Virus record (IMG/VR): IMGVR_UViG_3300030104_002675
Location: 1 to 37,460 of that record
Source of the DNA: a virus
DNA length: 37,460 bases
Strand: one strand, 5' to 3'
Of this stretch, positions 11,078 to 34,900 are shown one piece after another (positions within the stretch are counted from its first letter, which is position 1; the number at the start of each line of letters is the position of its first letter). Both the position numbers and the translations under genes were made by a program. The notes under the pieces are model-generated. The model did no database searches. It saw only the letters and a list, made by a program, of their open reading frames with translations, and was not told the DNA's origin.

Positions 11078-12502
11078 ATGGGTTTATTAGACGGAACCAC
11101 GCATAAAGAATATTATCAAGGTAATAATTTCGGTAACTACCAATTTGTATCTTTAGACGATATAATTAGTCAATTCCAAGTAATGTATGTTGGAGAAGAT
11201 AAAATAATCCCTAAAATTAAGCGAGCAGATGTCGCGTTCCATGCTCAACGGGCTTTGGCTGAATTATCATTCGACACCTTTAAGTCGTTTAAGTCTCAAG
11301 AAATAGAAATACCACCAAGTCTCACGATGGTGTTACCTCACGACTACGTGAATTACACTAAACTATCTAGCGTTGATGCTGCTGGAATAAAGCACGTCTT
11401 GTACCCAACCAAGCACACGTCAAATCCATTTGAAATAAAACAAAAAGATACAGGTGAATACGACTTTCCCACCGGTGAAACAACGGTAATGAATGCTGAC
11501 TTTTCTCAAAATTTAGACTACTACCAAAAATCACCAGGTTTTATTAAGGTAATAGACGGCGTTTTAAAGTTTAATCATAAAGTTTTAAACTCTCCAGGAG
11601 GCATTCCTTTTGGCGATTCTTCAGCTGTTTGGCAAGAAATTGACGTATCACAAGTTAACTACGTTGACATATCCGCTGATGGCGTAGCTGCTGCAGCAGC
11701 TCCTGGTGGAGTACTTAGATTTGGTTTAAGTACTAACCAAGGTGATATGTACACTCACCCAAATATTCTAACAGATAATTTAGGTAATAATATACCAGCT
11801 TCACTTAATGCTTCGGAAGATATATTTGATATTGAAGGCGCGATGTTAACTTGGGACTCTACATCTAGTACTCAAGAAGCTTTGAATATAAATGTATCAG
11901 CTTACAATACAGTTTATATATTAATTACATCTAATGCTCCATTTACTAGTTTAACTCAAGCAACTGTTACAAATACTATAGATAACTTATCTGTTACTAA
12001 TGCGCAGTCTGGCAATTCATTAAATCATGCTTCAGATGATGGTTTAAGTTCATCTACTTGGACGAGTTATAAATCGTCTACTATAGCTGAAGATGGTATC
12101 GATGATTACAGATATGAGCAGCATTGGTTAAATCCTAACGAGCGATATGGATTAGATCCAGAACAAGCTCAAGTAAATGGCTCATTTTATATAGATCAAA
12201 GATTAGGTAAAATACATTTTTCTTCTAACATTAACGGTAAGACTGTAATCTTAGATTATATAAGTGATAGTCTTGGCACTGACGCAGAAATGCAAGTCCC
12301 TAAACTCGCAGAAGATGCAATGTATAAACATATTTTATGTGATATAATGAGTGCTAGATCAAATATCGGTGCTGGTAGATTAACTTATTATAAAAAAGAT
12401 AAATTCGCTGCTGTCAGAAAAGCTAAGTTAAGATTATCGAATATTAAATTAGAAGAATTAACTCAAATTCTTAGAGGTCAATCTAAAATAATTAAACACT
12501 AA
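11078..12502 (+). CDS. Probable neck/tail ring protein with inserted beta-sandwich, 474 aa
   Basis: The two ends look like one conserved backbone. Residues about 20-135 include SLDDIISQFQVMYVGEDKII, KRADVAFHAQRALAELSFDT and the LPHDYVNYTKLSS segment. Residues about 330-474 include YGLDPEQAQVNGSFYID, a KIHFSS strand and a helical DAMYKHILCDIMSARSN. Between them, residues about 139-326 form a Ser/Thr/Asn-rich beta domain starting NADFSQNLDYYQKSPGF and containing VIDGVLKFN, a layout like carbohydrate-binding jelly rolls. The backbone resembles ring or tail-tube-end proteins of crAss-like and marine flavobacterial podoviruses as I remember them. The inserted module may be exposed on the particle surface and bind host or environmental glycans; this is inference. 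Confidence 0.6.
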   Translation: MGLLDGTTHKEYYQGNNFGNYQFVSLDDIISQFQVMYVGEDKIIPKIKRADVAFHAQRALAELSFDTFKSFKSQEIEIPPSLTMVLPHDYVNYTKLSSVDAAGIKHVLYPTKHTSNPFEIKQKDTGEYDFPTGETTVMNADFSQNLDYYQKSPGFIKVIDGVLKFNHKVLNSPGGIPFGDSSAVWQEIDVSQVNYVDISADGVAAAAAPGGVLRFGLSTNQGDMYTHPNILTDNLGNNIPASLNASEDIFDIEGAMLTWDSTSSTQEALNINVSAYNTVYILITSNAPFTSLTQATVTNTIDNLSVTNAQSGNSLNHASDDGLSSSTWTSYKSSTIAEDGIDDYRYEQHWLNPNERYGLDPEQAQVNGSFYIDQRLGKIHFSSNINGKTVILDYISDSLGTDAEMQVPKLAEDAMYKHILCDIMSARSNIGAGRLTYYKKDKFAAVRKAKLRLSNIKLEELTQILRGQSKIIKH

Positions 12503-12505
12503 TTC

Positions 12506-15500
12506 ATGCCTGAAATTAAAAACACTTTCATTCAAGGTAAAATGAATAAAGACCTTGATGAAAGATTAATTCCCAATGGTCAATATCGTGACGCTTTAAA
12601 TATAGAGGTCACTTCAGCTGATGAAGGTAACTCAGGGACTGCGCGTAACATATTGGGTAATACTAGAGTAGATGCTTTAGTTGGAGGAGACAACTACACG
12701 TGTGTTGGTAGCATTGCTAACGAGTTGACTAATAAGTTATATTGGTTTATTCATCGCCCTGGTGCAGATGCTGTGTTAGAATATGATAAAGTACAGGGCA
12801 CGAATAAAATAATTTTATATGATCACGATAATACCGTCCCTCTCGCTGAAAATAATCCACTCTATACAGCTTTTTATGGTGAAAACTACGACTATAGTAA
12901 GATATTAAATTTTACAGGAAAACAAATAACTGGTATAAATATTGTTGATGACTTTTTATTTTGGTCTGACGGAGATGATGAACCTAAAAAAATAAATATA
13001 TCTAGATCTTATCATGACGGTTACACAACTTTAAATCAAGCCGCAAGTGCTACAGGTAACCCCTTCGCGTTTGTTCCGCGCTTACACGTAAACGGAGAGT
13101 TAACAGATACGATTTTACACAAAGATCATATTACTGTTATTAAAAAGAAGCCTACCTCAGCTCCTACAATTAAGATGAATCTTTCAACTAGTGGAGAAAC
13201 ATCTATTTTTGAAAAGGTGTTCCCTAGATTTTCTTGTAGATATAAATACAGCGATGGTGAGTATTCTGCTTTTGGTCCATTTACAGACGTTGCGTTTAGC
13301 GCGAAGTATCCAGAACTTGTAAATGCATCAAATTCTTACTCTACAGATGAACCATATAATAAAGCTATGGTTAATTCGATATCTTCTGTCGAGTTATATG
13401 ATTTTATTCCTAGTGATATCCCTAAAGACGTAGTTCAAGTAGATATTCTATATAAGCAAGAGGATTCAAACGTAGTTTACTCTATTACTAATATTAAAAA
13501 CACTGATTCAGAATGGACACATCAAGGGTTAAATGAAAACTCTTCGCATAAAGGTAAGTACGTTATAACATCAGAAAACATCCACGCGGCGTTGCCAGAG
13601 AATCAACTATTACGAGCTTGGGATGCTGTTCCAAAATCAGCTTTAGGCCAAGAAATAATTGGAAATAGATTAGTTTACGCTAACTATAAGCAAGGCTACA
13701 ATTTTGACGAAACATTTCCTACGCCAGATATAAACGCCGAGTATATACAAAGAGCTACTAATTTCGACAATGGAGGAGTTAAGTCTATTAAATCACTTAG
13801 GAAATATCAATTAGGATATGTCTTAGGTGATAAATATGGTAGAGAGACACCTGTTTTTACATCCGATGACGCGGGTATAAATTTAGATTGGTTTAGCCAA
13901 AGTCTTAGTGGTAACGCTAGTTTATCGAACATGTTTAAGGTAAGTTTGTCTAACCAAACTCCTGATTGGGCTTATTATTACAAGTTTTACGTAAAATCTC
14001 CATCAGCCGAGTATTATAACTTACTTATGGATAAGTGTTATTTTCCTTTTACTCACACGGAGTTTGAAAATAAAGACGACCATATATATGTGTCTTTCCC
14101 TTCTTCTGATAGAAACAAAATAATGGAAGACGATTATCTTATATCTAAAAAGATATACGATGGTAGCGACTCGCAAGTGTTTCAAGAAAATAAGTATAAA
14201 ATACTAGATATAAGCAATGAAGCTCCAGACGCTGTTAAATACGTGTTTTTCAACTTGGGAACAGCCGCAAATAATGACAACGCGTTTACTGGAACTAGCG
14301 TAGTAGGTTTTGGTGGAGAAGATAGTGTTTTATTTGCGGGTCCTGGTCATATGACTAGCGCTGGATTGCGTATTGATCAGCAAACAGATATTATTCATAT
14401 ACATAAAACAAGTTGGCTAAGCAGCACTTTTAATGGCGCACCTCTTGTTGATTATAACGAAGAAACTGAAACGCAAGTAGAAAACTACAAAGGAGATATT
14501 TATATGTCATGGAGTTCAGGTAACTTGAGTTCTAATAGATATAAAGTTTCTAGCATACGAGTTAGCAATAACAATACATACATATTAAGATTAACTGAGA
14601 CTATATCCGAAAAAGACGCAAGAATAGCGGCCCTTAACGATACTATAGAAACCTTAAATTTAGATGATTTAGGTCCCGAGAGTTCTAATACTCAAGTTAC
14701 TATGGATTCTGGTCTTACATTAAAATTTGAGAGACGCCAAAAGAGAAGCGAAGAAGATTTTAGTGGTAAGTTTTTTGTTAAAATAAAACACAACGCATAT
14801 CTCACGAGTAGCAGTGGCAGTAGCACCGATAGTTCGGGAAGTGTATTTCCTGTGGCTCAAGCTGGTATACAATGGTTAGTAGGTGTGCACAACTCGGCAG
14901 ATGCAAGTGAAGGTTCAGGTATAGTAAACTCGGCTAGTGCTTCTATAGAATCAACTCTAACTACAGAAACAGCAGTAGCGGGTATAGCGAATTTAACTGG
15001 ATTCGCCACTGAGCCGTCCGATTGGGACGTTATAAAAAGCCATATAGGTAATAGATTTTTCATTGACGATATGAACTTCATCGCATGCAATGTGCATGAG
15101 GATTCGTACGCTAAAGAATCTGGTCCGGCGTGGCGTGGCTTAAATCCTCCAAGTGCGTATAAACCTTTTAAGTGGATGCCAATTGATGGTGACGAAAGCT
15201 CTCAATCCGGTCTTGATACTGGTTATTATTGGCGTATAGATAGCCCAGAGTTAAGTGAGGGCGGTTTGGGTTTTTATGGAAGCTTAAAATCATTTGCTCC
15301 TTCGACGACATCAGCAACCTTTAGTGCCTCTCCTTTTCTTACTAGAATAATTAATAGTTTTGAAGGAATTGTTACCACTACCCTGGCTCATTCCGGTCAA
15401 GGATCGTTTTCAGGTGGTGCTCCAAATAGTGGTGAAAGACGCTTTAATAATAATACGTTATATTGTCATCCTAACGGAAGCACGCAAGGTTTGGATAATA

Positions 15501-18500
15501 CATACGGACCTATAGATTCTACTGAAAAACACTTTATACATATTTCATTTTTAGCTCCAGGCGTAAATTTAATAGATGAAATGAGTGCAGATGATCTTGC
15601 CGATGTAACAATTAAGGGTAAAGACAGCATCGCACGTAAACTCGAGGGAATCTGGGGAGGAGGAGCGTTTACTAAAGTACCTTCTGCGCCCGTTGAAGTT
15701 GGTGGTAGTTATAGCGTAAATTACTTTGGAGACATAGGTGTAGATGGCCATGTTATTGAATTTGAGGGCAATTACAATGAATCAGGAAATGATCAATCCG
15801 GAACTCCAGGTCCTGGTATAGGACAAGGATATGATCTTGATTATGGTTTAAGGCATTCTAATCAATGGAAGCCACAATATTCAGATTCAGGTACAAACGA
15901 AGAGTTAAATAGTTTTGTAGAAAGAATAAAAACCCCTGGCCAGAAGTTTATATTTAAAGGAGACGATTCTGAGACAGTTTATCGCATAGAAAGTGTTACA
16001 GAAAAACATATGTACAATCACACTCCATGGCGTATGAGGTGGTTGTGGGACGATACAAACAGCGAATGGGTTGCCGGTGGCGACAGCGTAGAAGAAGCTG
16101 CTAGCGCGTGGGCTGATTTCACGGACGTTAATTTAACACCGTCTAATAACAGCGGTGATGAGGGTTATTCAACCGCTGCTACAGCACTAGCAGACGCTAT
16201 CACTGACTTTGGTGCCGCGAATAATAGAAGAGTTACTTACATCATAGAACTTGATAAAGATCCTGTAGATCATTATGATCCACGTACAGATTCCGTTGAA
16301 AGTATAGATGCTACAATAGACGATGTTAACGGACAAATTCAATTTGTTAGCGATATAGTTCCTAGTCAAATAGACGCCATATTTAGTCACCCTACTATAT
16401 GGGAGACAGAGCCGCAACAGTTAGCTGATTTAAATATATACCACGAAGCTAGTAATAACATACCAATAAAATTAACCAGTACCACTAATGAGTTGTTCGC
16501 CCCAGTTGGCTCAAAAGTAGATATAGTATCATATGGAGAAAATTATGATGTTGACGTTGACTTTGCAGAAGGAGCAATAGTAGACACGGAATCCTCTTAT
16601 ATTAGTCTCTGGAATAGCGAGGATATTTTTGAAGTTAATCCACCCTTACCTGAAAATAATTATACAGGGTCAGTATTTAGATTTTCTAAAGACGATGGTA
16701 GTTATGTAGAAGCTAAAATTATAGATCAACTAGGTCCAGGTGTACAGTTTAAAGTAAACACACAAGTCGATGTGACTAGAGATGTGGGATTAAGTTGGTT
16801 TAATTGCTTTTCTTTTGGTGACGGCATAGAGTCAAATAGAGTGCGAGATGGTTATAATAAAATGCAAATATCTAATGGAGCTAGAGTTTCAGCGACACTA
16901 GAGCAGCCATTTATAGAAGAGCATAGAACTAATGGTCTTATATATTCTGGAATATACAACTCTAATTCTGGTGTAAATAACTTAAATCAATTTATCGCAG
17001 CAGAAAAGATCACGAAAGACTTAAACCCTACCTATGGTAGTATTCAAAAGTTATTTTCAAGAAATACAGATCTAGTAGCTTTATGTGAAGATAGAGTATT
17101 AAAAATACTAGCTAATAAAGACGCTTTATTTAACGCTGATGGAAATCCACAGCTTGTAGCTACACCAAACGTGCTTGGGCAATCAGTTCCATTCTCTGGG
17201 GACTTTGGAATATCAACACACCCCGAGTCTTTTGCACATGAATCCTTTAGAGCTTATTTTACAGACAAACAAAGAGGCGCTGTCCTTAGACTGTCTATGG
17301 ATGGATTGACGCCTATATCAGACGCGGGTATGCGTGATTGGTTTAGAGATAACTTAGTTGACGAAGCTAATTTTATAGGTAGTTATGACGCCTTTAATAA
17401 GCAATATAACTTAACAATTAAGTCTAAGCCAATTTTGGGATCTATTATTAATGATGATTTTTCAGAGGGAGTTGCTGCAGTTGAATCTTTTAACAATACA
17501 GAATATATAGACAATGGTGCTTTTACTCAGGGGTTAAGTTTCTCTGGAGTTATGCAACTTGAAGACTTAGACTTAGTTGAAAGAAATAAAACAATAAACC
17601 CAGATTTATTCGTAGATGTTACCATAAGGAACCATCCTGAAATATTAGCAGAAAGTTTAGTGGCATCTGTTACCACCACTGAAGAAGTAGACACGGGAGA
17701 AACAGCAACTAGTAGTGAAGACATTGACTTTGGCGATCCTGATTTTGAGATAAATTATATCGATGATCCCGACGCGCCTATAATTATGCCTGACTCTTTA
17801 GATGGCTTTCCAGAAGGTCAAGCACCTGTTATGTTTGGTTTTGACGAAAACTTAAATAGCTCAGAATCTCCTTTTGACGACGTTGGGTCTACAGCGACTA
17901 CTTTTAACATAAAAAGATACAATAATACTGAGGATACAAATCAAGTACCTGCTGTGCTTGAAGAGTATAATGGTTATGGTGGAGATGATACGAATTTGGG
18001 ATTTGGTGTAGGTGCAAGTGGAGGAGGTATTAGTGGCCATACTAATACCACAAGATGGACTAATCCAACAACTATTTTCCATCAAAACGAGAGTGGTTTT
18101 GCGGCTGGTGGCGTGCCTTCAACCCTAGACGATGGAAACAACGATGATTGGCATGCTATTAACAAAGGTATAACTTTTAGAGGAAGCCCTACCGACGAAG
18201 GTTCTGGTGAAGTGCCATGGGGTTATATACAGTTTCCTTCTAATGGATTTATTGAAGGAGGTACTAATCAATTGACAGATAGTATAATTAATAGTGAGCC
18301 AGCTGCTAGAAATAATACTATTTTTAAAGGTGAAGAAATAGAAGTAACAGTTAATTACAGATCAAACCACCTAGGTACAGAGTCAGATAACTTTATTAGA
18401 GTAGAATTATTTGATGGTAACTCGCCATTAGATAGTAGTTATTTTGCTGGAGGTACTACTTTTAGTAATGAAAACATTGAAGGTTGGACTAACTCGCAGT

Positions 18501-20971
18501 CTGTAGATACGCTTAATGTAGGCGCGCAGTATGATAGTGATAAGCTAGAGCGATTTTATTACAAATTTTCATCAACCAACGACACTATTGGCGATATAGC
18601 TGTTCAAGATTTGCAAGTAAGAATAAGCGTATTTATGGCATCTGCGCTCGGTACTAATAAAATGTGGAGGTTGAGCGAAACAGTTATAACATCGTGTGAA
18701 GTAAAGAAAATTTACATGCTTCTTGATCAAGATTACGACACTGGTGATTTTGAGCAAATTATTGATATGGAGACTCAAACAGTAACTACAACTGTTCCTA
18801 TTTATGAAACCGTAATTACCACAACACCTGGTGTTCCGTTAGAAACAATTGACCCTTGGGCTGAGGTTATATTTCCAACTACTGTAGAAGGTTATCAGCA
18901 GATACAGAGTATTGATTATAGTGGTATAGCTTCAACTTTTGGGTTTCAGAACTTAGCTGAAGAAATATCTTATATTGATGCAGATGGTAATGAACAAACA
19001 TACCTGAGTGGACAAGGAAATGGAACTACATCTTATAATCAATACCCTGGGCAAGCTGTAGAGAGCGAAAATTACACTCAAGCTATTGAGAGTGTTGATA
19101 TTGGGCTATTAAGCTTCGCTACAGGGCCTGTACCGTTAATAATAAATTTAGATGAAACTAAATTACCTTTAGATCATACCAAGTGGTATTTATTAGAAAT
19201 AGAGCTTCCAGATGAAATAGATTTTAGCACTATTGGAGATTTTGAACTACCTTTTATACAACTTCTTGATTCAAGTAATCAACCTCAATTGGTTTTTTAT
19301 AACAGTAATAACAATATTCAAATAGGAGACTTCATCGACCATAGTACGCTGAGATTGGAACTTATAGATAATAAGCTAACGGCTCTATTTAACCCAGGAA
19401 CGGGTGATGTAAGTGGAATAGAAAAAATAAGCTTAAGTACGTTTAGCTATCCAAACGTATCAATACCAGGAGCAGGAACAGTACCATCGCTTATGGAAAG
19501 TATAAGATTTACAGACGTAAGCGTTGATTGGTACGGTGGTCATGCGAATAATTGGAATATAAGTCCAGAATTGCGTCACATAGAAAGAGCTGCTATTCCT
19601 GGAACAACGACTATACCTCAATCACATCCTAGCGTTTATTACCAAAACGGACAGATAAACTTCAATTCTAGTTTTGAAAATGTGATTGCTTCGACGTTCG
19701 CAAACGAAAGAAGTTTTACGCAACAGCTACCAGACTTACCAGAAGTAAATGATCATTACGAATTAGTTGTACAATACGGTAATGACGCTATATCTGGTAA
19801 TTTCAATACTAGCGAAATCGCAGGGATAACTATCAATGTTGGTGATTATGAATTCACAAATGCGCTTGGTGGAGATCTAATTCAAGTTGCTGATGATGAT
19901 TCGTTTAGTATTAGCTATTATTATGGTCCTATAAACTTTGATGGTGGACCTGCAGAAATTAAATTTACAGCTGATAATCTGTTTGTAGGTAGTGTAAAAA
20001 GCGTATCTTTAAAAGATATGACTAATTATTTTGAACCAGGAAGTGCAGGATCGTGGATAATAGACGGGTTTGATCAAGGGTTAAATAATTTTATTTCTTG
20101 GTATCAAGGTAGTATAAGCTTTAACGACGCACTGCAAGATCATAGAATATACCAACAAATAGGTGAATTACCAGTAGGACAGAGTTTTAAATTATCTTTT
20201 AATCTTGCGTATACTACCACGTCAATTGCTAATAGTGGTACAGTAAAGGTTTCGTATATTAATGAAGCAGGTTTAGTAGCATTCGAGCGCGTGTTTGGTT
20301 TCCTAGATCAAGGACTTGTTAATCATCAATTTCTCGTAGGCGAAGGATCGGGTGAACCATTAGGTTATTCTAATACTTTTATAATAGAAGCCTCAGGATC
20401 TAATCCTTTAGTAGCTATCATAGATAACCTCAAACTTAGACGTGTTATAACTGACGAAGAGTTTGGTACTCATCCGCTAACTATTAGTTACAATGAAGAC
20501 GTTAAAGGTTGGGTTAGCTTTAAGTCATTTGTACCAGAAAGTGGATTAAGTCTTTCTAGCCAATATTTCACTACTAGTCAAGGTAAATTATGGCAACACT
20601 ATACTAACGAAAATAGAAACGACTTTTACGGTCAACAAGCTGAATCACGTATATCTGTTGTACTTAATAATTCTCCTTCAACAGTTAAAAATTTCAATAC
20701 AGTAAATTACGAAGGGTCTCAAGCTAAGATATTAAATTTCGCAACAGTGGGCGAAAGTACTACTATGCGACCTTATAACGCCGGCGGTTCTATTGATGGC
20801 TGGGAGGTTACGTCAATATTAACAAACCTAGAGGAAGGTCAAGTTCCGGAGCTTATAGAAAAAGAGAATAAATGGTTTAACTATATAAGAGGCTTAAATT
20901 CACTAGATCAAGACACATCTAGTTTTAATTTTCAGGGAATCGGTGTTTTATCTCACACAACAAATGATTAA
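12506..20971 (+). CDS. Giant tail/hub protein with propeller-like core and jelly-roll inserts, 2821 aa
   Basis: The N-terminus (FIQGKMNKDLDERLIPNGQ, then RDALNIEV) is a signature I recall from tail hub or stabilisation proteins of crAss-like and marine flavobacterial phages. Residues about 1500-1640 hold a second conserved part: PTYGSIQKLFSRNTDLVAL, then AYFTDKQRGAVLRLSMDGLT and a closing YDAFNKQYNLTI, compatible with beta-propeller blades. The last 170 residues (LTISYNEDVKGWVSFKSF, then LSSQYFTTSQGKLWQH) look like the end of the same backbone. Between them, about 1648-2650, lie several beta-rich modules: IINDDFSEGV (1647), a domain around 1840-2080, a Thr/Val linker near 2091-2110, WNISPELRHIERAA (2348) and WIIDGFDQGLNNF (2519). 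These resemble carbohydrate-binding folds. I infer a tail-tip/receptor-contact role. Confidence 0.65.
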   Translation: MPEIKNTFIQGKMNKDLDERLIPNGQYRDALNIEVTSADEGNSGTARNILGNTRVDALVGGDNYTCVGSIANELTNKLYWFIHRPGADAVLEYDKVQGTNKIILYDHDNTVPLAENNPLYTAFYGENYDYSKILNFTGKQITGINIVDDFLFWSDGDDEPKKINISRSYHDGYTTLNQAASATGNPFAFVPRLHVNGELTDTILHKDHITVIKKKPTSAPTIKMNLSTSGETSIFEKVFPRFSCRYKYSDGEYSAFGPFTDVAFSAKYPELVNASNSYSTDEPYNKAMVNSISSVELYDFIPSDIPKDVVQVDILYKQEDSNVVYSITNIKNTDSEWTHQGLNENSSHKGKYVITSENIHAALPENQLLRAWDAVPKSALGQEIIGNRLVYANYKQGYNFDETFPTPDINAEYIQRATNFDNGGVKSIKSLRKYQLGYVLGDKYGRETPVFTSDDAGINLDWFSQSLSGNASLSNMFKVSLSNQTPDWAYYYKFYVKSPSAEYYNLLMDKCYFPFTHTEFENKDDHIYVSFPSSDRNKIMEDDYLISKKIYDGSDSQVFQENKYKILDISNEAPDAVKYVFFNLGTAANNDNAFTGTSVVGFGGEDSVLFAGPGHMTSAGLRIDQQTDIIHIHKTSWLSSTFNGAPLVDYNEETETQVENYKGDIYMSWSSGNLSSNRYKVSSIRVSNNNTYILRLTETISEKDARIAALNDTIETLNLDDLGPESSNTQVTMDSGLTLKFERRQKRSEEDFSGKFFVKIKHNAYLTSSSGSSTDSSGSVFPVAQAGIQWLVGVHNSADASEGSGIVNSASASIESTLTTETAVAGIANLTGFATEPSDWDVIKSHIGNRFFIDDMNFIACNVHEDSYAKESGPAWRGLNPPSAYKPFKWMPIDGDESSQSGLDTGYYWRIDSPELSEGGLGFYGSLKSFAPSTTSATFSASPFLTRIINSFEGIVTTTLAHSGQGSFSGGAPNSGERRFNNNTLYCHPNGSTQGLDNTYGPIDSTEKHFIHISFLAPGVNLIDEMSADDLADVTIKGKDSIARKLEGIWGGGAFTKVPSAPVEVGGSYSVNYFGDIGVDGHVIEFEGNYNESGNDQSGTPGPGIGQGYDLDYGLRHSNQWKPQYSDSGTNEELNSFVERIKTPGQKFIFKGDDSETVYRIESVTEKHMYNHTPWRMRWLWDDTNSEWVAGGDSVEEAASAWADFTDVNLTPSNNSGDEGYSTAATALADAITDFGAANNRRVTYIIELDKDPVDHYDPRTDSVESIDATIDDVNGQIQFVSDIVPSQIDAIFSHPTIWETEPQQLADLNIYHEASNNIPIKLTSTTNELFAPVGSKVDIVSYGENYDVDVDFAEGAIVDTESSYISLWNSEDIFEVNPPLPENNYTGSVFRFSKDDGSYVEAKIIDQLGPGVQFKVNTQVDVTRDVGLSWFNCFSFGDGIESNRVRDGYNKMQISNGARVSATLEQPFIEEHRTNGLIYSGIYNSNSGVNNLNQFIAAEKITKDLNPTYGSIQKLFSRNTDLVALCEDRVLKILANKDALFNADGNPQLVATPNVLGQSVPFSGDFGISTHPESFAHESFRAYFTDKQRGAVLRLSMDGLTPISDAGMRDWFRDNLVDEANFIGSYDAFNKQYNLTIKSKPILGSIINDDFSEGVAAVESFNNTEYIDNGAFTQGLSFSGVMQLEDLDLVERNKTINPDLFVDVTIRNHPEILAESLVASVTTTEEVDTGETATSSEDIDFGDPDFEINYIDDPDAPIIMPDSLDGFPEGQAPVMFGFDENLNSSESPFDDVGSTATTFNIKRYNNTEDTNQVPAVLEEYNGYGGDDTNLGFGVGASGGGISGHTNTTRWTNPTTIFHQNESGFAAGGVPSTLDDGNNDDWHAINKGITFRGSPTDEGSGEVPWGYIQFPSNGFIEGGTNQLTDSIINSEPAARNNTIFKGEEIEVTVNYRSNHLGTESDNFIRVELFDGNSPLDSSYFAGGTTFSNENIEGWTNSQSVDTLNVGAQYDSDKLERFYYKFSSTNDTIGDIAVQDLQVRISVFMASALGTNKMWRLSETVITSCEVKKIYMLLDQDYDTGDFEQIIDMETQTVTTTVPIYETVITTTPGVPLETIDPWAEVIFPTTVEGYQQIQSIDYSGIASTFGFQNLAEEISYIDADGNEQTYLSGQGNGTTSYNQYPGQAVESENYTQAIESVDIGLLSFATGPVPLIINLDETKLPLDHTKWYLLEIELPDEIDFSTIGDFELPFIQLLDSSNQPQLVFYNSNNNIQIGDFIDHSTLRLELIDNKLTALFNPGTGDVSGIEKISLSTFSYPNVSIPGAGTVPSLMESIRFTDVSVDWYGGHANNWNISPELRHIERAAIPGTTTIPQSHPSVYYQNGQINFNSSFENVIASTFANERSFTQQLPDLPEVNDHYELVVQYGNDAISGNFNTSEIAGITINVGDYEFTNALGGDLIQVADDDSFSISYYYGPINFDGGPAEIKFTADNLFVGSVKSVSLKDMTNYFEPGSAGSWIIDGFDQGLNNFISWYQGSISFNDALQDHRIYQQIGELPVGQSFKLSFNLAYTTTSIANSGTVKVSYINEAGLVAFERVFGFLDQGLVNHQFLVGEGSGEPLGYSNTFIIEASGSNPLVAIIDNLKLRRVITDEEFGTHPLTISYNEDVKGWVSFKSFVPESGLSLSSQYFTTSQGKLWQHYTNENRNDFYGQQAESRISVVLNNSPSTVKNFNTVNYEGSQAKILNFATVGESTTMRPYNAGGSIDGWEVTSILTNLEEGQVPELIEKENKWFNYIRGLNSLDQDTSSFNFQGIGVLSHTTND

Positions 20972-23682: not shown

Positions 23683-25941
23683 ATGGCAGTAGATTTAAGA
23701 GGACAAGCAGACGCAACAATAGCAAGTGCAGCAGCAAGAGCAGGCGCGGCACTAGCGGGACCAGACTATAGTACGTCATTTCAAAATATAGCCACTGGAT
23801 ACCAATTAGGTATGCAGAAATTGGGTGCCGGTTTAGCAGCGGTATCTCAAGTAGGCGCCGCAGCGGCCACTGATTTAGTAGAAAAAGTAAAAGAAGCGAA
23901 AACCACTTATACTGAAAGCGGGGCGTGGGGATCTGTTATGGGTAACTTTAAGGGTCTTCTAAAAGAAGGTTTTGATATATTTAAGGCTGAAAGAGGAGAA
24001 GATAGAGACGTACAGAAACAAGAGTTTAAAGATAAATGGAACACTAGCGTAGGTAGTCTTAAAAGTATGATTGATAAAACTTTTATGGTTGAGATGGTAC
24101 TAGAGGAAGGTGAATATAATAAAGCATATCTTGAAGAAAACCCTGATAAAGCAGCTCAGTTCTCTATAATTAGATCAACCAAAAAAAATCCAGTAGACGC
24201 ACCAGGACTTCCATATGACGGTTGTTATTCAGACATGGAAGTTGAGGATGGAGCGTGGGTTAAGAAGTATTACGGTCCAGATGGAGCACCAATATCGTCA
24301 TTTGGTCCTGATGGAACACCTATATATGTTGATAAGCGAGACATGCGTCCTGACGCGTCACAAATTGTTGAAGATAAGACTCAAATATTGCGCGAACCAA
24401 GCGGCGAGTATAAAGCAACTGGAGAAGGTAAAGTGGGCTTCAACAACGAGGTCATAAACGAAACTTTGATGAATCCTTTGAAAGAAGGTAGTTTAGACAG
24501 ATTGGCTAAAGAAGGATACACCATATACGTACCTGGCAAGGACGGTATCCCTACTGATGAAATTAAATACCAAAGCAAAGGCCCAGGCGCTATAGGGTCA
24601 GCTCAGATCATGCTCAATAGGATGGGTTATACGGGTGTTGATGGTAAGCCGTTAAAAGTAGATAATTTACTTTACAAATACGACAAAGACGGAAAAAGAA
24701 TTAAATCTAATACTGAGCACGCTTTTGAGCAATTTAAAAAAGATCAAGAAGCGAGAGAGCAAGGTGCTGGTGATTTATTTTCAAGTATACAAACGTATGC
24801 AGATGAAGAAAGAACTCAAATGAGTGTAAACGGTAATGATATATCAAAGCTTATAGTTAGGAAAAATCCAGAAACACAAGCTGGTATTCAAGAATTACAA
24901 CTAGCTGCTATGGAATCAGGTTCGGTAGGTTTGGATTTCAAATCCAATGAGTATAGAAATGCGATGAAGGATATAGTTGATGATAAAGATAAGTTTTCTG
25001 ATATGGCATATACTCCTATTGGAAATGAAGAATATAGCTTTGCACAACTGTTAACGCAACCAAATAAGATGACGAAAGAGATGTTTAATCAAGTTGTATC
25101 AATGGGTAAAAATCTTGCTGGTATTGATCCAGGTGAAGATGGGATTATTGATGAAAACGATTTCCAAGAAGAGGATGCTGCTAATTTAGCTATTCTAAGG
25201 AAAGAAATGTTGAATTACAGCAACCCCCAAGCGCGAGAAATATTTTTTGATTATCTTGTTGATGAAGGAGCTAGTAGACACAAGGAACAATTAGACATAT
25301 ATAACAGGAAATTAAATGCGGGAAATATTACTGATGATGGCGGCGACGGTTTAATAACTTCAAAAAAGAACGTGACTCTCTTTACAGTTAAGGGCGAAGA
25401 TGGTACTACTTATGTTCGTGAGAGTGATATGAACAACAACGCTACAGCGTTCCATCAAATTGAAACTGGGGATTACGCTTCGGATTCTTTCACAGGGTGG
25501 AACGGCGAAACATACTCATTTGAAAATGATCAATGGTATGTTGATGACGTAGATGATGGTGGAGACCCAATGAAAAAACCTATACCAAGGCAAGAAGTAA
25601 TTGATCAATTGAAATTCAGCTCACAACCAACTATAATGGATTATCTAGGTACTTCTTTAGAAGGACAAGACATTGGATTTATGGAGGGTAGTAACGATAT
25701 TTTCTTCCAAAGTCAAACAGGTAAAGGAGCAGCAAATATGGGAGACCGTGATAACTGGAAAAAAGATGATAACGGGTATTGGCAGTTCAAGCAAGAAGAC
25801 GGTAGTTATAAAACAATGATATGGAAAAACAATAAGGGACAGTGGATAGGTACGAAGATAAAGGGTATGCCGGAATTAGCTGCTTCTAAAAAATTAGCAG
25901 AATTCTTAGAGGGATCAATTGACAATACATACGCAGACTAA
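23683..25941 (+). CDS. Probable internal virion protein with possible PG-binding module, 752 aa
   Basis: The N-terminus is Ala-rich and helical (SAAARAGAALAGPDYSTSF, then YQLGMQKLGAGLAAVSQVG), as in ejected virion proteins. Residues about 303-355 (AIGSAQIMLNRMGYTGVDG, then LKVDNLLYK, then HAFEQFKKD) follow the outline of a PG_binding_1 module: helix with LNxxGY, a short G-VDG turn, and a second helix with F. Two loops look like calcium sites: DPGEDGIIDEND at 482-493 and DDGGDGLI at 551-558. The C-terminal part is aromatic-rich and beta-like (FTGWNGETYSFENDQWYVDD; DNGYWQFKQEDGSYKTM). The gene sits between another ejection-type gene and the giant one, with the stop one base before the next ATG. 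I infer a role in crossing the peptidoglycan; nothing here shows catalysis. Confidence 0.55.
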   Translation: MAVDLRGQADATIASAAARAGAALAGPDYSTSFQNIATGYQLGMQKLGAGLAAVSQVGAAAATDLVEKVKEAKTTYTESGAWGSVMGNFKGLLKEGFDIFKAERGEDRDVQKQEFKDKWNTSVGSLKSMIDKTFMVEMVLEEGEYNKAYLEENPDKAAQFSIIRSTKKNPVDAPGLPYDGCYSDMEVEDGAWVKKYYGPDGAPISSFGPDGTPIYVDKRDMRPDASQIVEDKTQILREPSGEYKATGEGKVGFNNEVINETLMNPLKEGSLDRLAKEGYTIYVPGKDGIPTDEIKYQSKGPGAIGSAQIMLNRMGYTGVDGKPLKVDNLLYKYDKDGKRIKSNTEHAFEQFKKDQEAREQGAGDLFSSIQTYADEERTQMSVNGNDISKLIVRKNPETQAGIQELQLAAMESGSVGLDFKSNEYRNAMKDIVDDKDKFSDMAYTPIGNEEYSFAQLLTQPNKMTKEMFNQVVSMGKNLAGIDPGEDGIIDENDFQEEDAANLAILRKEMLNYSNPQAREIFFDYLVDEGASRHKEQLDIYNRKLNAGNITDDGGDGLITSKKNVTLFTVKGEDGTTYVRESDMNNNATAFHQIETGDYASDSFTGWNGETYSFENDQWYVDDVDDGGDPMKKPIPRQEVIDQLKFSSQPTIMDYLGTSLEGQDIGFMEGSNDIFFQSQTGKGAANMGDRDNWKKDDNGYWQFKQEDGSYKTMIWKNNKGQWIGTKIKGMPELAASKKLAEFLEGSIDNTYAD

Positions 25942-25942
25942 C

Positions 25943-28900
25943 ATGGCAGATAAAGAAGTTTACGAATCTGGAGGAAAGCAATATAGAGTAGGGCCTAATA
26001 GTCTGGAAAAGTTCAAGAAGGACCATCCTAATGCAACTAAAGTAGAAGCTCCGAAAAAAGGTTTTATAGAAAAAGGATTTGATGCTACAGCTGGGGCTGT
26101 TACTAGTCTCTTTGGTGGTGGAACTGAAAAAGCGGTTAAAACTGGCTCAACTGATAATGTTGGAAATCAATCTGTTTATGAAGTTGATGGTAAACAGTAT
26201 AATGTGGGGCCTAATAGTTTGGAGAAATTTCAACGAGCTAATCCTAACGCTGTTAAAATAAGTGGTGATGATCCGGGTGTTTCGGGAGGTACAGTGGCAA
26301 AACGCGTGGCTCAAAGTGCAATGTTTATGAATCCCTTCACGCGCACGGCGAGTGTCGCTTGGATGGCGTATGACGCATGGGAGGATCATGAAACGGCGGA
26401 TATGAAGCATAAACAGGAAGGGGCGCATATACTTGAGAATTTTAGTTATGCAGATGACAACGGGGTTCCAAAGAAAGTCAACCACTTAGACGCTAACGCG
26501 TTCGTTGAAGCTACAAGTGGTGAAGGAATATTCGGTATGCGTAAAGAAGGAAACGCTGTTGAGCTGCTTAATAGCTTTTATAAAGAAGCTAACCCAGATT
26601 TAAATATAAGATTCGTTGAATCTAAAAGAGGTAAAGATGCTGTAGAACTTTTATTTGGAGATCAAAAAGAAGGGCAGGGAAAGGAGTTTGATTTAGATAG
26701 TGATTTTGGAATTGATTTTAGTCAAGGGTGGCAAGAATTTATAGGTAAAGGAGATGAAGCATTCACGAACGAAGATGTTTTTGAGAATATAAAACGTACT
26801 ATAGATAACGCTATAAACCCTGAACTTGAAGCTGCTTCAATAGATGCGGTTTTAGATAACATCGATATACATAATCTTTTTCTATCAAATAATCCTGATA
26901 ACAAAGTTCAGTTTCTAAATAATTTAGACGAAAAAAGCGGAGCGCTATTTCAAGACCCAGATCAAGCTACATTGGGTGATCCATTTGCAACAACCACAAG
27001 TAGGTTTATAGTAGATCCTACGGATACTAAGGGTTTTGGAGAATCGGTACTTTGGGGAACTAGTTTTGGTCAACACGATTCTAGAAAGGTTAATATGACT
27101 GGATCTCTTACTTTTGAAGATGAAAACGGAGAGGTTCATAAAGTCCCATATAAACACATTTGGGATAATAGAGAAGTATTCCAACAAGCTGCTCAGCAAA
27201 GAAGTATGGTAGATCACAGCGAGAGGCTTATTATAGAGCATGGCGAAGGAAAATACTCATATGATCCAAATAATATATTAACGGGTGTAAAATCAGAAGG
27301 CGTATACGCGGTTGAAGAGGGCTGGATGAATAATATTCTTAGCGGCGAGGACAAGTGGTTTGATGAAACATTAACCGTATCGAATCGTATTAAAGCAGAA
27401 AAAGAAGGTGATAATCGCGAAGATATTATCAAAGCAGACACTGAACGTTTAGAAAGCTTACTTAAAGAAAGAGGTATTAAACCTTTGTATGATAAAGATG
27501 GGTTTTTAGATATTGAGAAATTAAACGAAGAAATACAAGCTACAGAAACTAAAGAAGAGACAGAGGCAAATTTATTAGCTGACGATCATCCGGCTTCAGT
27601 ATTAGCTGATATGAGACATCAGGAGATCGTTAAACTGATGGCGCAGTCAGAGATTGCGTTATCGGCTAGAGATGACGTAGAGGGTAGCATAAATTGGTTT
27701 ATAAGGAAAGCAGGCGGGGTCTTAGGTCCTAATTTATTTGAACCATTAGGCGCCGCTATGGACGCTATCGCTGGGGATAACAAGCCGAAGGTTCGTGGAG
27801 AAGATATCCGTACCGACATGTTGTATTTAGAAAACATTGTTAATAGCGGTAGTTTGAAAGACCTTGATAGACTTCCAGAACTTGCAGGTGATTCACCAGC
27901 AGCTGTGCAATTTAATGAAACTGTAAAGAATTTAAGAACTATATCGAAAGCTTTAGCTATAAATAGTGACCCTACTAAAATGAAAAGGGATAACCTAATT
28001 GGAGAAATAGTAGACGATCTAAGTTATTCATTCACTGGCGAAAGAATTATAAGTGATCACACTAGAAATATGGAGGTTGAGGCCTTCTCTTACATGCTAG
28101 AAGACGCAGGATATTTTATACCTGGGATAAACGCTAAAGAAGGAGACTATGAAAGACAGGATATTACCCCTGGATCTCCAGGAGAATGGACGTTTAGCGG
28201 GGCGTTAACTAATGCTCGTAGAGCAACAGAAGCTACGTCTCAGGTAATTACAGACATGGGTCCTCTTTTATTGGAACTTTATCTTTTCAAAAAAGCATCG
28301 CCTAGGTTCATGACAACTATGACAAAAGGAGTTGAAAGAACAGCCGCAATAGCTGCTAGACGAGCAAAGAGATTAGCAGGTAAGTTGAATAAAAACTGGG
28401 GCCGCTCAACTACGCTACCAAAAAGTTATAAGTGGTTAACTAGAAACGTTGTAGCACCAGGTGTTGCTACGACGGCAGAGTGGGCAATAGCGGAATCTAT
28501 CGGTGAGCATACTATGGGTTGGAAAGCTCAGACTATCGATTGGGAGACTGGTGAAACAAGATTTACTTTCCCTTTTGCAATGGGTGCTAGTGGAAAACTA
28601 TTCTCACAATTGCAAGCTAATGTTTGGAAAAACCTAAAAGTTAAATCACCAAAATTAGCCGCGAGATTAGAAAACGTTAGTACTACTAGTCTTACCTCTA
28701 GTAAATATAAAAAGGTTCTTCAACCAGTGGCTAACCTTGTTGGTAAATCCGTAGGTCAAGGTGCAACAGCGACTGCGCTTTTAACCGTATCTGAAGGAGC
28801 GCAGTTAATGATAGGTAGTTTAATTGAAGACGGAAATCTAGGAGAAGCTGAAGAGTGGAAAGAGTTATTTGATCCTAAGCATCTAATGACTACTTGGGCT

Positions 28901-31900
28901 GCTATGAGTGTTTTAAGTGGTCAAAAGTTACTACCTGAGTTTAGAAGTTATGTTCGAGAGAGTATCCTATCGCTGGATATGAATACTAGGGCTTCTGCAG
29001 AAGCCTCAGAAACTCTAGGTTTAACACATGAATCAAATAGAAGAAAGGATGGAGGGTATCGTGACTCTAGAGTAGATAGATCTAGTGAATCAAGACAAAA
29101 GAAAATTGATAAGCAAGCTAATAAAGATAAAAATAATGTAGATAAAGAAACAAGGAAACAGCTTGATAAAGTAAACAAAAGCAAAGAACTAACTGATACG
29201 CAGAAGAGAAGGGAGAGAAATAAAATAGGTAAAGAAGGCGCGAAGAAGAAGAGAAAAATCGATGCTGGCGCAAAAAAGAGTAAAGGCGTTGTTGCTGATG
29301 CTGCTAAGGCGCTTAAGTTGCATAACGATGTTATAGCTACCCAAAAGTCCGCAAGAGCAGATAGGAAGTGGGAGGAATATCTAATGAAGGAAACACGTAA
29401 GTTTGACTTAACTAAGAAAAGAGACTTAACGAACGAAGAGAGAGAAGAATATGCTGAATTAGATCGTGGTGATATCGAGAAAATGCTGTATATGAAGGGG
29501 CATACTCCTGGTAGCGCGGGGTATGAATACTATATGCAAGAACACTCGGTTCTTAAACATTTTACAGCACTTGCTAATGGAGCTCGACTTCAAAGCGGAA
29601 AAAATATAACTTTATACGGTAAAAACAATCCTGCGGCTAGAAGAAAATTCATTCAAGATGGTGTAAACGCCTGGAAAAATCAATATAGAATAGAATCTCT
29701 TAAAAAAGAGATGAAAGAGAATCCAGGTGACACTGCTACTAAAATGTTTAATAAAAATAGACTTGAAACTTTAGAAAAGCAAGGAAAGGAATTTCAAGAG
29801 CAAGTTGACGCAAACTTTAAGAACTTTGAAAAATGGGTTGAAAAGAACATAGATCTCGAGATTGCCGCCGCTAAAATAATGGGTGAAAAAATAGGTGCTA
29901 AAGGAGAGTGGGATGTTTTAGATAATAACTCATATAGAGACAAGATCGAGAAACTAGGATTGGGGAAAGAGGCTATGGAATCAGAGGGCGTGTTTATTGA
30001 AGAAACCGGAGAGATTATTCTCAATAGAGATAAAATGAAAGAGCTTGTGTCTTTAGGCACGGCTACCCACGAGCTATTACACAGAGTTCTAAAAGAATCA
30101 CTAAAAGTAAAAAACAAGAATGGAGAAAGAGTTATATCTCCTGAAGGTAAGAAGTTGATAGAAGATTTTTTAGATCGACTTCCTAAAAAAGATAGAGCTG
30201 TACTAGAGGAAAGAATAGAAGAAAACTATAAATACCAAGAGTTTACTCAAGAAAAATGGGATCAGCTAAGCGCTAAGGAAAAAGCGAGATATAAGAAGCC
30301 TGAAGGCGTAGGTGGCCAATTAAGAGCTGAAGTTAAGGAAGAGTACTATTACGAAGAATATCTTACGGCTTTTGGCGATGCTCTAAAAGAAGGTTTAATA
30401 AAGTTTGATAAATCTTCCATTCCATCAGAAATTGGAGATCCTTTTTATGATATACTTAAAGAAGTCGCTCCTAATTTAGGTAAAGGAAGACAGGGTGGTA
30501 CAAGATCTTTTGAATCTGGTAAAGAACTTCATGAATTCCTTACAACGTTCCACGCTTATGGTGAAGTTATAAAATCTAAAATAGAAGCTGGGGAAGTTAT
30601 ACCTGAAGGTGTAAGCTATAAAACTAAAGCAGATATTAAAGTTAAAAAGAAGTCTAAAAAGCCTAAGAAGAAACCTAAACCCAAGTCGCCAAGAGAAGTT
30701 GAAACGGAAAATAGAAGGCAACTATCAGAAGCTGTGTTTGGTAACGCGGATGTTATAGGTGAGCTATCTGGTATGCATGGTGTAAGTAATAGAAGAGGTG
30801 GGGCAGAGTTGCAAGAACTTGTTGATTATATAGAGACCCAAGTAAAAAACTACAACACTCTAAATAAACTTGGGACGGAGAGAACAGTTGATCAAGTTAT
30901 TGAATCTGTCTTTGAGCATTTTGGCATTGGCCGTGGTGGTTCAAAAGGGAAATATGCGCTATCTAGAGTTGCGATGAATAACGCCGTACAATTAAGAGGA
31001 TACATTAAAGGTAGAGCGGCTGAAACAACCCCGAAAGCAGAAGTAAAAGCTAAAACAGCTAAACTATCTAAAAGAAAAAGAATTACAAAAGCAGTTAAGG
31101 TTGAGCAACCGTCAGATATTATAAATAAGTTCGCGGAAGGTATAAAAACACAAGCAGAGTGGAAAGAGAGTGAGGGTGTGCAACAAGCTGTTAAAGCTCT
31201 TAAACCTGGTGGCGTAATATATAATCGTATTGCAGATAAAAGCAAAGGGTTAAGTAAAGAAAAAATAGCTGAAACTGTAGAAGCGTTTAGAGACAGGTTA
31301 AAGAACTTTGATCCTCAGGCAAAGCGAAAGACAGATTCTAAAGAACCTATCACGCTTAATGAGTTTGTAAATGCTAATATTGGCTTTGGTAAACTAGTTG
31401 CTGCTAAAGAGCTATTTAAGCAGTCTGAACAAACGTCTAGAACTCAGAGAATAGACGAAACAACATCTGAAGGTAAACAAGCGTTTGAGCTTGAAGCAGA
31501 AAGAGATGCTAGTTTAGAAGCGTTTGAAGAAGCAGATATGTCTATGATGGCTCAAATAAGGAGGGCTAAATTAGAAGCAGAAGGTGAGCTTGAAGCAGAT
31601 GGACCTAGTTCACCGTGGAAAAAGTTTGTATTTAAAAATAATGCTTTAGCAAATCCAAGCGTGAGTAGCGCGGAACTTACAAATAAAACTGTTGGAACTG
31701 TACAAACCGCTCTTAAAACATCTGGATCTGTAGATGCTGTTAAGAAAGGTAATCCTAAAGTTTTCTTAAGTAACTTAGAAAGTACGTTTGGAAATAGCTT
31801 AACTAACACGGTTAGAGATACCTTTGGAAAAGGAAACAAGTATAAAGAATTTTATAAAAGCGAGGAAACGTTTAAAATGATAAAAACTCTTCCTGTGAGC

Positions 31901-34900
31901 GCACTTGTGAGAGCCGGCATGGAGTTCGCTTATGAGCCAGTTATAGATCCTTCAACTGGCAAGCAAAAGCGAATGACTGTAGACGAAATGTCAAAAGCGG
32001 GATACCCTACTCAAAAGTTTTCTGAACAAGCTAAAGAAATTAAAAACGATAAGAGTTTAACAAAGGCTGAAAGAAATAAAAAACTAAAGGAATTAGATAA
32101 AACTGGATCTGGTCCTGCTGTATGGGAACTTAAAGACTTTACTCAACAAGATTATATTAATTGGGCCGAAGCGAAGGACATCAATCCAAAAACAAATAAA
32201 CCGTGGGGTTCAGGTACTAAGGGTAATCGTAAAACCGCTACAGCTAAAATGGTCGGTGTTGAACTAGCTAAAGATGCTACTCCATCCGTATTGGCAAAGC
32301 CTTTTCAGCAAGCGTTTGATCTTAATGGTAATGCTAAGATGAAAGATGGTAAACCAGTAAAGATTGATTTATTAAAGGAGCTAAATACCATGGAAAAAGT
32401 TGAGTTAGCAGACACAGCTTTATCCAACAGAATCAATGAGATTATACGAAGAGACCCTACAGCTAAATTCTCTTTTAAGAAGAAGGTTGATGCATTTGAA
32501 AAGGAGCAGTTAGGTTTAGGATTTACGGAGCGTATAGAAAACTTAAATAAGCCAGAAAACGCAGATATTAAAAAATACTACGACAAAGAATCTCAAAGAT
32601 TGTTCAGCACTGACTACGAAACCCAAGCTCGGAAAATGGAGATGAAGATGTGGGAAGAGCAGACAATGTATGATCTTGAGTACGCTCAAGCTGAAAAGAT
32701 TCTTAGTGGAGAACAATTAAAAGAACTGACTGAATTAGCTGATAACTCTCGAACTGAATCAGATTTTAAGAAAGTAATAAAAAGATTCAATAAAGAAAAC
32801 CCAGGCCTTAATATACCTATTGATACTCAGAAGTTCGCTTTTGGAACCAAAGGAAAAGAGGCTAGAGAAAACTTCTTTAAGCGTCAAGGGGATATATACG
32901 ACTTACTTCCAGCTGAATTCTTTAATAACCCTAAGCTTGTCACTGCATTATTTAAAACAGGTGGATTAGGTAGCCTTATTACTAGAATGAGGTTTAAAGC
33001 CGATGGTACTCCATACAAACCTGGTGTTAAGCAGAAGTTAGCACCTAGAGGTAAAAAAGGAGATCCGAAGTATATGCTTGACAACTTTGGTAGGCCGCTT
33101 ACGGGTAACGCTAAGATAGAAGTTCCTATGATAAAGGACGCTAAAGGTAATCTTAGGCCACTAACTGACGCTATGAATATAGCTCAAATAGGAGCTTTTA
33201 AAGCTGGTAAAAAAGGTACTGGAAAACGAAAGGGTGAAATTGTTCAAGATGGTATGGTGCAATTCCACGAAAAAAATAAAAATCTCTCTAAAAAAGAATA
33301 TCAAAAAAAGCTATTCGAATGGGGTAGAGAAAATTTAGGAGCTAAGGACTTTACTTATGAACAGACTGAACAAGCCAATAAGTATGTGAGAGATACGTTG
33401 GCTAAAGCATTAGTGGAATACGCTTATGCTCCTAAAATGAAAGTTATTAAAGCCGGTAAGGAAACGATGGTTAAGATGACGAAGGCAGAGTTTGCAGAAA
33501 GAATAAATGTTGTAACTAAGTTTCTTCAGATACAAACTAATATAGGTGAAGGTTTGATTAAAGGTTTAAATACTATTAGATATTTAACTCTTGGAAAACC
33601 TACTCCTTCTAAGTATAGCCCTACTGGCTATCACGCAGAGCACGCATACTTTAATCTCGCTCATACAGCTTCGTTTGTTCACCTTTTAAGTAAACATAGG
33701 AAGTCAGGTAGTGTTAAAGACTTTATGAAGGATTATGAAGGTATTTCAGCTAACATGGAGCAATTTGTTATCCAAGAGCAAACAAGGCAAGGTAATGAAG
33801 GAAGACAAGCTGATGGAACTATATATGGAAACACTGAGTTCTTCAAAGGAGGTAACGTATTCTCTAAATTAAATGTATTAAGTTCGAATCCTAGAATTGC
33901 GTTTGAAATTGTAGATCTTAGAACGGGTAAAACCATTGGGGAAACAATGAGTAAAAACCTTCAGATTGGTGAAGCTGAAAGTATAGCTTTAGCTAGAGCG
34001 TTAGGTAAGAATCTTAATCTAGTTACGAAAGGAGAGAAAAAGTTCGACAAAGTTGACGAAGCTAATAAACGTCAATTAACAGGTGTGTTAAGTAAAAAGA
34101 CTGTTAAAAAAATGACTTTTGAAGAGACGACCGATGCTATTAAAATGGTTAATAAGGCTCTTGCTAATGGTAGAAAAACTGATGGTAAGAAAAAAGGTAT
34201 GTCTACTTTTGACTTTGATGAAACATTGATTATTAAAGGAGAGAATTTTGTTACTGCTACTAAAGGTAAAAATACAATTAAAATTAGTTCTGAGAACTTT
34301 CCATTAGAAGGTCCTAAATTAGAAGCTCAAGGCTACAAGTTTGATTTTAAGGATTTTGTTAATGTTAAAGGTGGGGTTGAAGGTCCTTTATTTAAGAAGT
34401 TGCAGAAACAAATCGATAAATACGGAAGCGAGAACGTTTTTGTACTTACTGCTAGAATGCAAGAATCCGCACCAGCAATACACGCTTGGTTAAAGTCAAA
34501 GGGCGTAGAACTACCTATTAAGAATATTACTGGTCTAGGTAAATCAACGGGTGAGGCGAAAGGATTGTGGATGCTAGAAAAGTTTGCTGAAGGATATAAC
34601 GATATGTATTTCGTTGATGACGCAATGTCTAATGTTAAAGCTGTTAAAAGAGTATTGGACCAATTAGATGTTAAATCTGACGTACAGCAAGTAAGATATA
34701 GTATAAAGAAAAATCTAAATGCTGATGTCAATAAGATGATGGAGCACTCGCTTGGTATTGACGCAGGTAAAACGTTCTCCAAAGCTGAGGGTAGAATGAG
34801 AGGTAAGGATGCTAAGCGTAGAAAGCTATTCTTACCAGATACGGCTGCTGATCTTGATCTGTTATTAGAACCACTATATGGTAAGGGTAAACAAGGAATA

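Follow-up and report, generated by a model that had tools for sequence, protein, structure and literature searches.

Introduction

According to Bayfield et al. (2023, PMC10172136), the muzzle, which is the tail-tip nozzle protein of crassviruses, varies in length through insertions, and these lie in its crass domain and in IG2. Two further tail systems are of interest here. The abstract of a study on lactococcal skunaviruses describes evolved distal tail proteins, in which carbohydrate-binding insertions promote adsorption (PMC10688798), and the nozzle gp12 of phage T7 is described as bearing a jelly-roll fibre dock near the end of its propeller, on the outer surface (PMC6702177). Here we analysed a virus record of 37,460 bases in IMG/VR (IMGVR_UViG_3300030104_002675; the whole record is hereafter called the window), which is a marine relative of the gut crAss phages. 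An earlier note, made from the DNA letters alone, had proposed that about 1,000 residues of jelly-roll-like modules are inserted before the end of its giant tail protein, forming a receptor-binding cassette possibly exchanged between phages. We consider that positions 17423-20476 are probably an in-frame modular adhesion cassette, seated in the turn of a late-propeller hairpin of the muzzle protein, with glycan binding suggested by the predicted fold and by precedent in other phages.

Results and Discussion

A kilobase-scale insertion in one hairpin of the muzzle protein

Judged from its matches, the 2,821-residue protein is the Crassvirales muzzle (tail-tip) protein. In the PHROGs database, phrog_14478 (virion structural protein) covers the protein to residue 1643, and phrog_18548 picks up at residue 2658. 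The 87 phage records matched in tblastn are all less than 60% identical, and their hosts are Flavobacteriaceae nearly throughout (Cellulophaga, Flavobacterium, Tenacibaculum and Maribacter). The Pfam family crAss_MUZ, which represents the rest of the muzzle, found no match in the window's protein up to E 0.1, nor did the sequence search against PDB; the same family was matched in an insert-free relative, L009 (59 bits), and in Gundel (61 bits). crAss_MUZ_C, the C-terminal muzzle domain of Crassvirales, was found in all 27 insert-free relatives of alignment A3.

The insertion is in frame and separates the two strands of a beta-hairpin at its turn (QYNLTIK // LTISYNEDVKGWVSF). The backbone strand QYNLTIK stops at residue 1639, and the following strand, LTISYNE, begins at residue 2658, a few residues later than the resumption at about 2652 that the earlier note had given. 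In the relatives the junction is the turn between the strands ...EYNLTL and TxSYxEDVKGWVSF, at the identical point in every row. An ordinary short loop connects both backbone parts in L009-L012 and similar relatives, in agreement with the note's statement that the two parts are close together in related phages. The large insertion itself is thus borne out by the PHROG borders and by the relatives. As about 50 different contigs hold 441-1,375 residues in the same hairpin turn, chance is excluded as an explanation.

To describe the variation, we gathered IMG/VR relatives with the backbone pieces upstream (residues 1330-1640) and downstream (2652-2821) of the insertion, and measured the gap between them. 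The gap lengths were mostly bimodal, being either short (50 rows, no more than 159 residues) or 441-1,375 residues. Among 168 distinct loci with the downstream block, the loop was of 40 residues or fewer in 78, of 41-400 in 21 and of more than 400 in 51; the gene was split around the hairpin in 17, and one locus was cut by the contig end. In this count duplicates were dropped by identical downstream sequence and near-copies stay (the phi13:2 group, for example, counts as four), and L085, whose open reading frame (ORF) runs off the contig, was omitted from the loop classes. The insert thus varies among relatives in both presence and content, and the relatives do not all carry the same 1,000 residues with uniform conservation, which the note had named as refuting its proposal.

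Table 1. Features of the muzzle gene and of the upstream ring-like protein gene in the window
Feature	Positions	Strand	Basis or remark
Muzzle (tail-tip nozzle) protein, Crassvirales type	12506..20971	+	ORF of 2,821 aa; crAss_MUZ_C, phrog_14478, 87 tblastn phage records
First strand of receiving hairpin, KQYNLTIK, residues 1632-1639	17399..17422	+	kept in relatives with and without insert
Whole insertion, residues 1640-2657, about 1,018 aa	17423..20476	+	missing from L009-L012, from L099 and from many more; 441-1,375 aa elsewhere
Opening segment M1, residues 1641-1742	17426..17731	+	alignment A1, junction list; pLDDT mostly 60-87 after poor first 25 residues
Module M2, residues 1764-2079	17795..18742	+	low pLDDT, fold not established; DNA 88-98% to L004 (windows over 1741-2100)
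Module M3, residues 2112-2346	18839..19543	+	all-beta model
Module M4, residues 2347-2509	19544..20032	+	paralogue of M5 (hhalign)
Module M5, residues 2510-2652	20033..20461	+	CBM4-like jelly roll by model
Second strand of receiving hairpin, LTISYNEDV, residues 2658-2666	20477..20503	+	phrog_18548 resumption, junction list, split-locus starts
crAss_MUZ_C domain, residues 2703-2795	20612..20890	+	Pfam match, 31 bits vs cut-off 27
Separate insertion (about 198 aa) in tail-barrel ring-like protein (11078-12502)	11474..12067	+	gap 5-31 or 108-295 aa in relatives

Muzzle genes split at the same hairpin

The joint that receives the insertion in the window is also a point around which the muzzle gene is split in other phages, in three or more lineages. 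In phi13:2, the muzzle gene product gp120 extends about 500 residues beyond the first strand and has Big_9/cadherin-like matches. Its partner gp121 opens with MPKTITYSEKNKGWTSF, which is the second strand. Both gene products of the split muzzle of phi18:3 have been annotated as structural proteins from tandem mass spectrometry (MS/MS). Manatee Spring virus ctfjg026 is also split at the hairpin, and the split loci include L122 (phi13:2), L168 (phi18:3), L123, L078, L054, L120, L152-L157, L169 and L171, L054 and L078 being from IMG/VR. A candidate start methionine of the second gene lies 3-6 codons ahead of the equivalent strand in 14 of the 17 split loci, and 16, 22 and 128 codons ahead in L054, L153 and L167, respectively. 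The first gene stops within 6 residues of the first strand in four loci and carries a tail of 308-507 residues in the other 13; up to 4.5 kb of DNA intervenes in some of them. On a 167-row tree splitting required five changes, of which at least three are forced by well-supported branches; the placement of L167, which has a long branch, is uncertain.

Breaks also occur elsewhere in the muzzle gene, and the hairpin is therefore one break point among several: the gene is broken upstream of the late propeller (block A) in L109-L111 and L114-L119, and inside it in Maribacter phage Panino (L125). Relatives lack the insert, carry other versions of it or split the gene at this turn, and so the joint has the appearance of a site where surface parts are exchanged in nature. 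We give about even odds to the reading that this hairpin acts as an open joint by nature, at which the chain may be plain, hold a kilobase-scale cassette or be cut into two genes, the split halves jointly completing the propeller, and at which surface domains are swapped without disturbing the channel.

Position of the joint in the muzzle

The window's protein and the phiCrAss001 muzzle gp44 (PMC10172136) belong to the same family by crAss_MUZ_C, and L009 adds to this the crAss_MUZ match and a structural match. The model of the insert-free L009 is poor, with a predicted local distance difference test score (pLDDT) of 42.5. The best structural match of this low-confidence model was the phiCrAss001 muzzle, 7qol_P (Z 8.7, root-mean-square deviation (rmsd) 3.8 over 162 residues), and other podovirus nozzle and gp10-type proteins were also among its matches. 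Since residues 192-393 of the model match residues 1056-1258 of 7qol_P across the joint, the insertion is probably inside the late part of the beta-propeller, not after the propeller as the earlier note had placed it. The joint is near residue 332 of the L009 model and therefore, by interpolation, near residue 1196 of gp44. In Gundel, the joint falls towards the end of the crAss_MUZ match, before crAss_MUZ_C.

The insertions reported for the gp44 family are in the crass domain and IG2, whereas that of the window would be in a propeller hairpin. This hairpin is not described as an insertion site in the searched passages of the open-access literature on the crass phage muzzle protein. The T7 fibre dock, to which the likeness is one of description, follows the propeller (PMC6702177), while the muzzle insert appears to interrupt it. 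The skunavirus distal tail proteins resemble the muzzle in that a tail protein conserved in its other parts has insertions in some phages and lacks them in others, and those insertions are carbohydrate-binding and linked to the host surface polysaccharide (PMC10688798). They are, however, another protein of another phage type in another host, with function tested there and the muzzle insert characterised here by sequence and models; the abstract of that study does not mention gene splitting at the insertion point.

Gain and loss of the insert

We mapped insert presence on a backbone tree of 98 rows, which includes the window and excludes Panino, whose ORF is broken inside block A. Three changes were sufficient, namely one gain in the starred 53-row group and two losses, in L009-L012 and in L099. 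The losses are likely and not proven, because the approximately unbiased (AU) test did not reject a single insert clade without loss (p 0.10). The nesting of L009-L012 and L099 among insert bearers would also be expected if the insertion were ancestral and had been lost in the insert-free phages. We regard this as quite improbable, as the insert is missing both from the deeper tree rows and from the examined isolates, and one gain with two losses is the shortest account.

The whole insert had no relative at E 0.1 among 50,697 phage records, of which the whole protein matches 87, and a single-sequence pattern scan for insert relatives found none. An alignment search recovered 22 loci, including two new contigs (L139 and L140), both of which are muzzle proteins. 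We also considered whether lost modules had moved to other genes and rejected this: 1,145 further ORFs from the loci gave 10 matches, all of which resemble muzzle ORFs cut at locus or contig ends, and one of them is the window's own slice, L001.

Modules and their probable exchange

The insert can be divided into an opening segment and four modules (Table 1). The start of M1 (N-x-x-x-N-x-x-x-x-E-G-like) is recognisable in most relatives bearing the insert. Profile comparison (hhalign) indicated that M4 and M5 are paralogues (93.7%, E 1.9e-7), and detected no paralogy among the other module pairs of the insert.

DNA identity between the window and its relatives, computed per 60 codons, switches along the insert. 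Compared with L004, the stretch for residues 1741-2100 is 88-98% identical, that for 2161-2340 is 41-48%, that for 2341-2520 is 72-84% and that for 2521-2640 is 48-54%; the flanking backbone is near 75%. The pattern is almost reversed with L005, being 44-59% over 1741-2100 and 74-86% over 2101-2640. The maximum-chi-square test of L004 against L005 gave its highest z, 13.6, for a breakpoint at residue 2117, and none of 2,000 permutations reached this value. For L002 against L003 the same test gave no breakpoint signal (267 of 2,000 permutations); these two show 65-85% identity in the adjacent backbone and mostly 44-69% within the insert. Module exchange is the simplest account of this mosaic identity. 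The suggestion that the cassette is exchanged between phages is supported by these breakpoints, and the module starts predicted at 2115, 2348 and 2519 coincide with identity switches between relatives. Less confidence attaches to the starts predicted at 1648 and 1840, because most of that half models poorly.

The modules may instead be structural, thickening or lengthening the muzzle or docking tail fibres as the jelly-roll dock between propeller and platform does in the T7 nozzle. The opening segment and the ending of the last module are kept in most insert-bearing relatives, as a stem would be. An essential dock would not usually show the rapid mosaic replacement seen in the middle modules, nor two apparent clean losses (with the AU p value given above), and we find a structural role possible though rather unlikely.

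Predicted fold and likeness to carbohydrate-binding modules

The AlphaFold2 model of the insert, made with 19 relatives, has a pLDDT of 68.6 and is mostly beta. Along the insert the score is mostly 65-90 over residues about 2112-2650, and the usable fold model appears limited to about 2112-2652. The model of M5 resembles a family 4 carbohydrate-binding module (CBM4), 1gu3_A, aligning over 121 residues with Z 10.4 and rmsd 2.9. Almost the same stretch also matches CBM22 4xuo_A (Z 9.7) and a baseplate chain of phage phi812 (9euf_8, Z 10.0). CBM4 and CBM22 modules thus have the jelly-roll fold in common with the predicted M5, while at the level of sequence none of the Pfam CBM families matches the insert. 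Some of the fold alignments span residues 38 to 885 and were judged untrustworthy, and the search of viral folds in BFVD returned chiefly long multi-domain proteins with TM-scores near 0.1. The jelly-roll-like modules of the earlier note accordingly hold as to modular all-beta content and as to the last module, which is modelled as a jelly roll, and are not established for residues about 1750-2080.

Several points weigh against an adhesive, glycan-binding cassette. Residues about 1750-2080 are mostly below pLDDT 60, so that no fold can be assigned to them, and the placement of the insert on the assembled muzzle depends on the poor backbone model of L009. Eph receptors, reelin and insecticidal toxin domains score equally high in the fold searches, and jelly rolls also act as protein-protein or purely structural modules. 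None of the Pfam carbohydrate-binding families matched the window's insert at E 0.01; a single weak match to GalBD_like was found in one of 20 rows (E 0.0093). Receptor binding by the insert is put forward here from models and analogy.

Enzymes that degrade polysaccharides contribute many of the fold matches, through their accessory domains, and the cassette might therefore be imagined as a depolymerase acting against capsule or another polysaccharide. Pfam finds no catalytic family in it, and where a match is confined to one module, the matched part is a binding module and not a catalytic domain; we consider enzymatic activity very improbable.

Other variation in the tail proteins and neighbouring genes

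A separate insertion occurs in the tail-barrel ring-like protein encoded just upstream (Table 1), and it is present in L009-L012, which are without the muzzle insert. The earlier note had supposed that the two inserts share an opening pattern. This was not sustained by BLASTP (E 0.33) or by profile comparison (best probability 2.1%, over 16 columns), and neither method detected a relation of this insert to M1-M5.

In 12 of the 98 rows the muzzle protein extends by more than 200 residues past the downstream block. These extensions contain GCTDPxAxNYDPxAxxDDGSC-type repeats (named by eye), stretches resembling leucine-rich repeats and a BACON-like match. The GCTDP-type repeats follow the muzzle C-terminal domain in L055, L056, L065, L071, L073, L076 and L051, and are found in the second ORFs of the split L078 and L054 as well. 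The C-terminal part of the muzzle ORF of L074 and L051 looks leucine-rich-repeat-like by eye and has no Pfam match at E 0.01. The C-terminal extensions of other muzzles were not accepted as homologues of the insert, as the sole match below 1e-3 was weak (L074-L040, 3.4e-4). Extensions were seen in 0 of 49 rows with the insert and 12 of 45 without (Fisher p 6e-5), and a correction for kinship left two independent pairs (p 1); mutual exclusion of insert and extension is not claimed, because it is unsupported after allowing for kinship.

The terminase gene at 2078 and the portal gene at 4299 (the latter by PHROGs) are consistent with the muzzle identity. A GroES-like co-chaperonin is encoded at 1268-1858, just upstream of the terminase gene (phrog_13932, E 1.2e-16). 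The ORF at 25919-36757 (3,612 residues) has no PHROG match at E 0.001; from its position only, it is possibly a large virion cargo protein.

Implications for host recognition by crassviruses

To our knowledge, host recognition by crassviruses is largely unknown. As the hairpin seems to accept any chain between its two strands, the inserted cassette would hang on the outside of the hexameric muzzle, in six copies. If it is genuinely adhesive, the string of jelly-roll modules may bind surface glycans of a presumed flavobacterial host and aid attachment before the muzzle opens, and the exchange of modules may shift glycan specificity. Cellulophaga phi18:3, with its split muzzle and MS/MS-annotated halves, is a deposited isolate genome and offers a testable phage. 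If the split halves do complete the propeller together, this would be an unusual natural case of two separate proteins completing one beta-hairpin. If the joint is an exchange point for muzzle adhesins, candidate host-range modules could be read from many uncultured genomes via one short loop.
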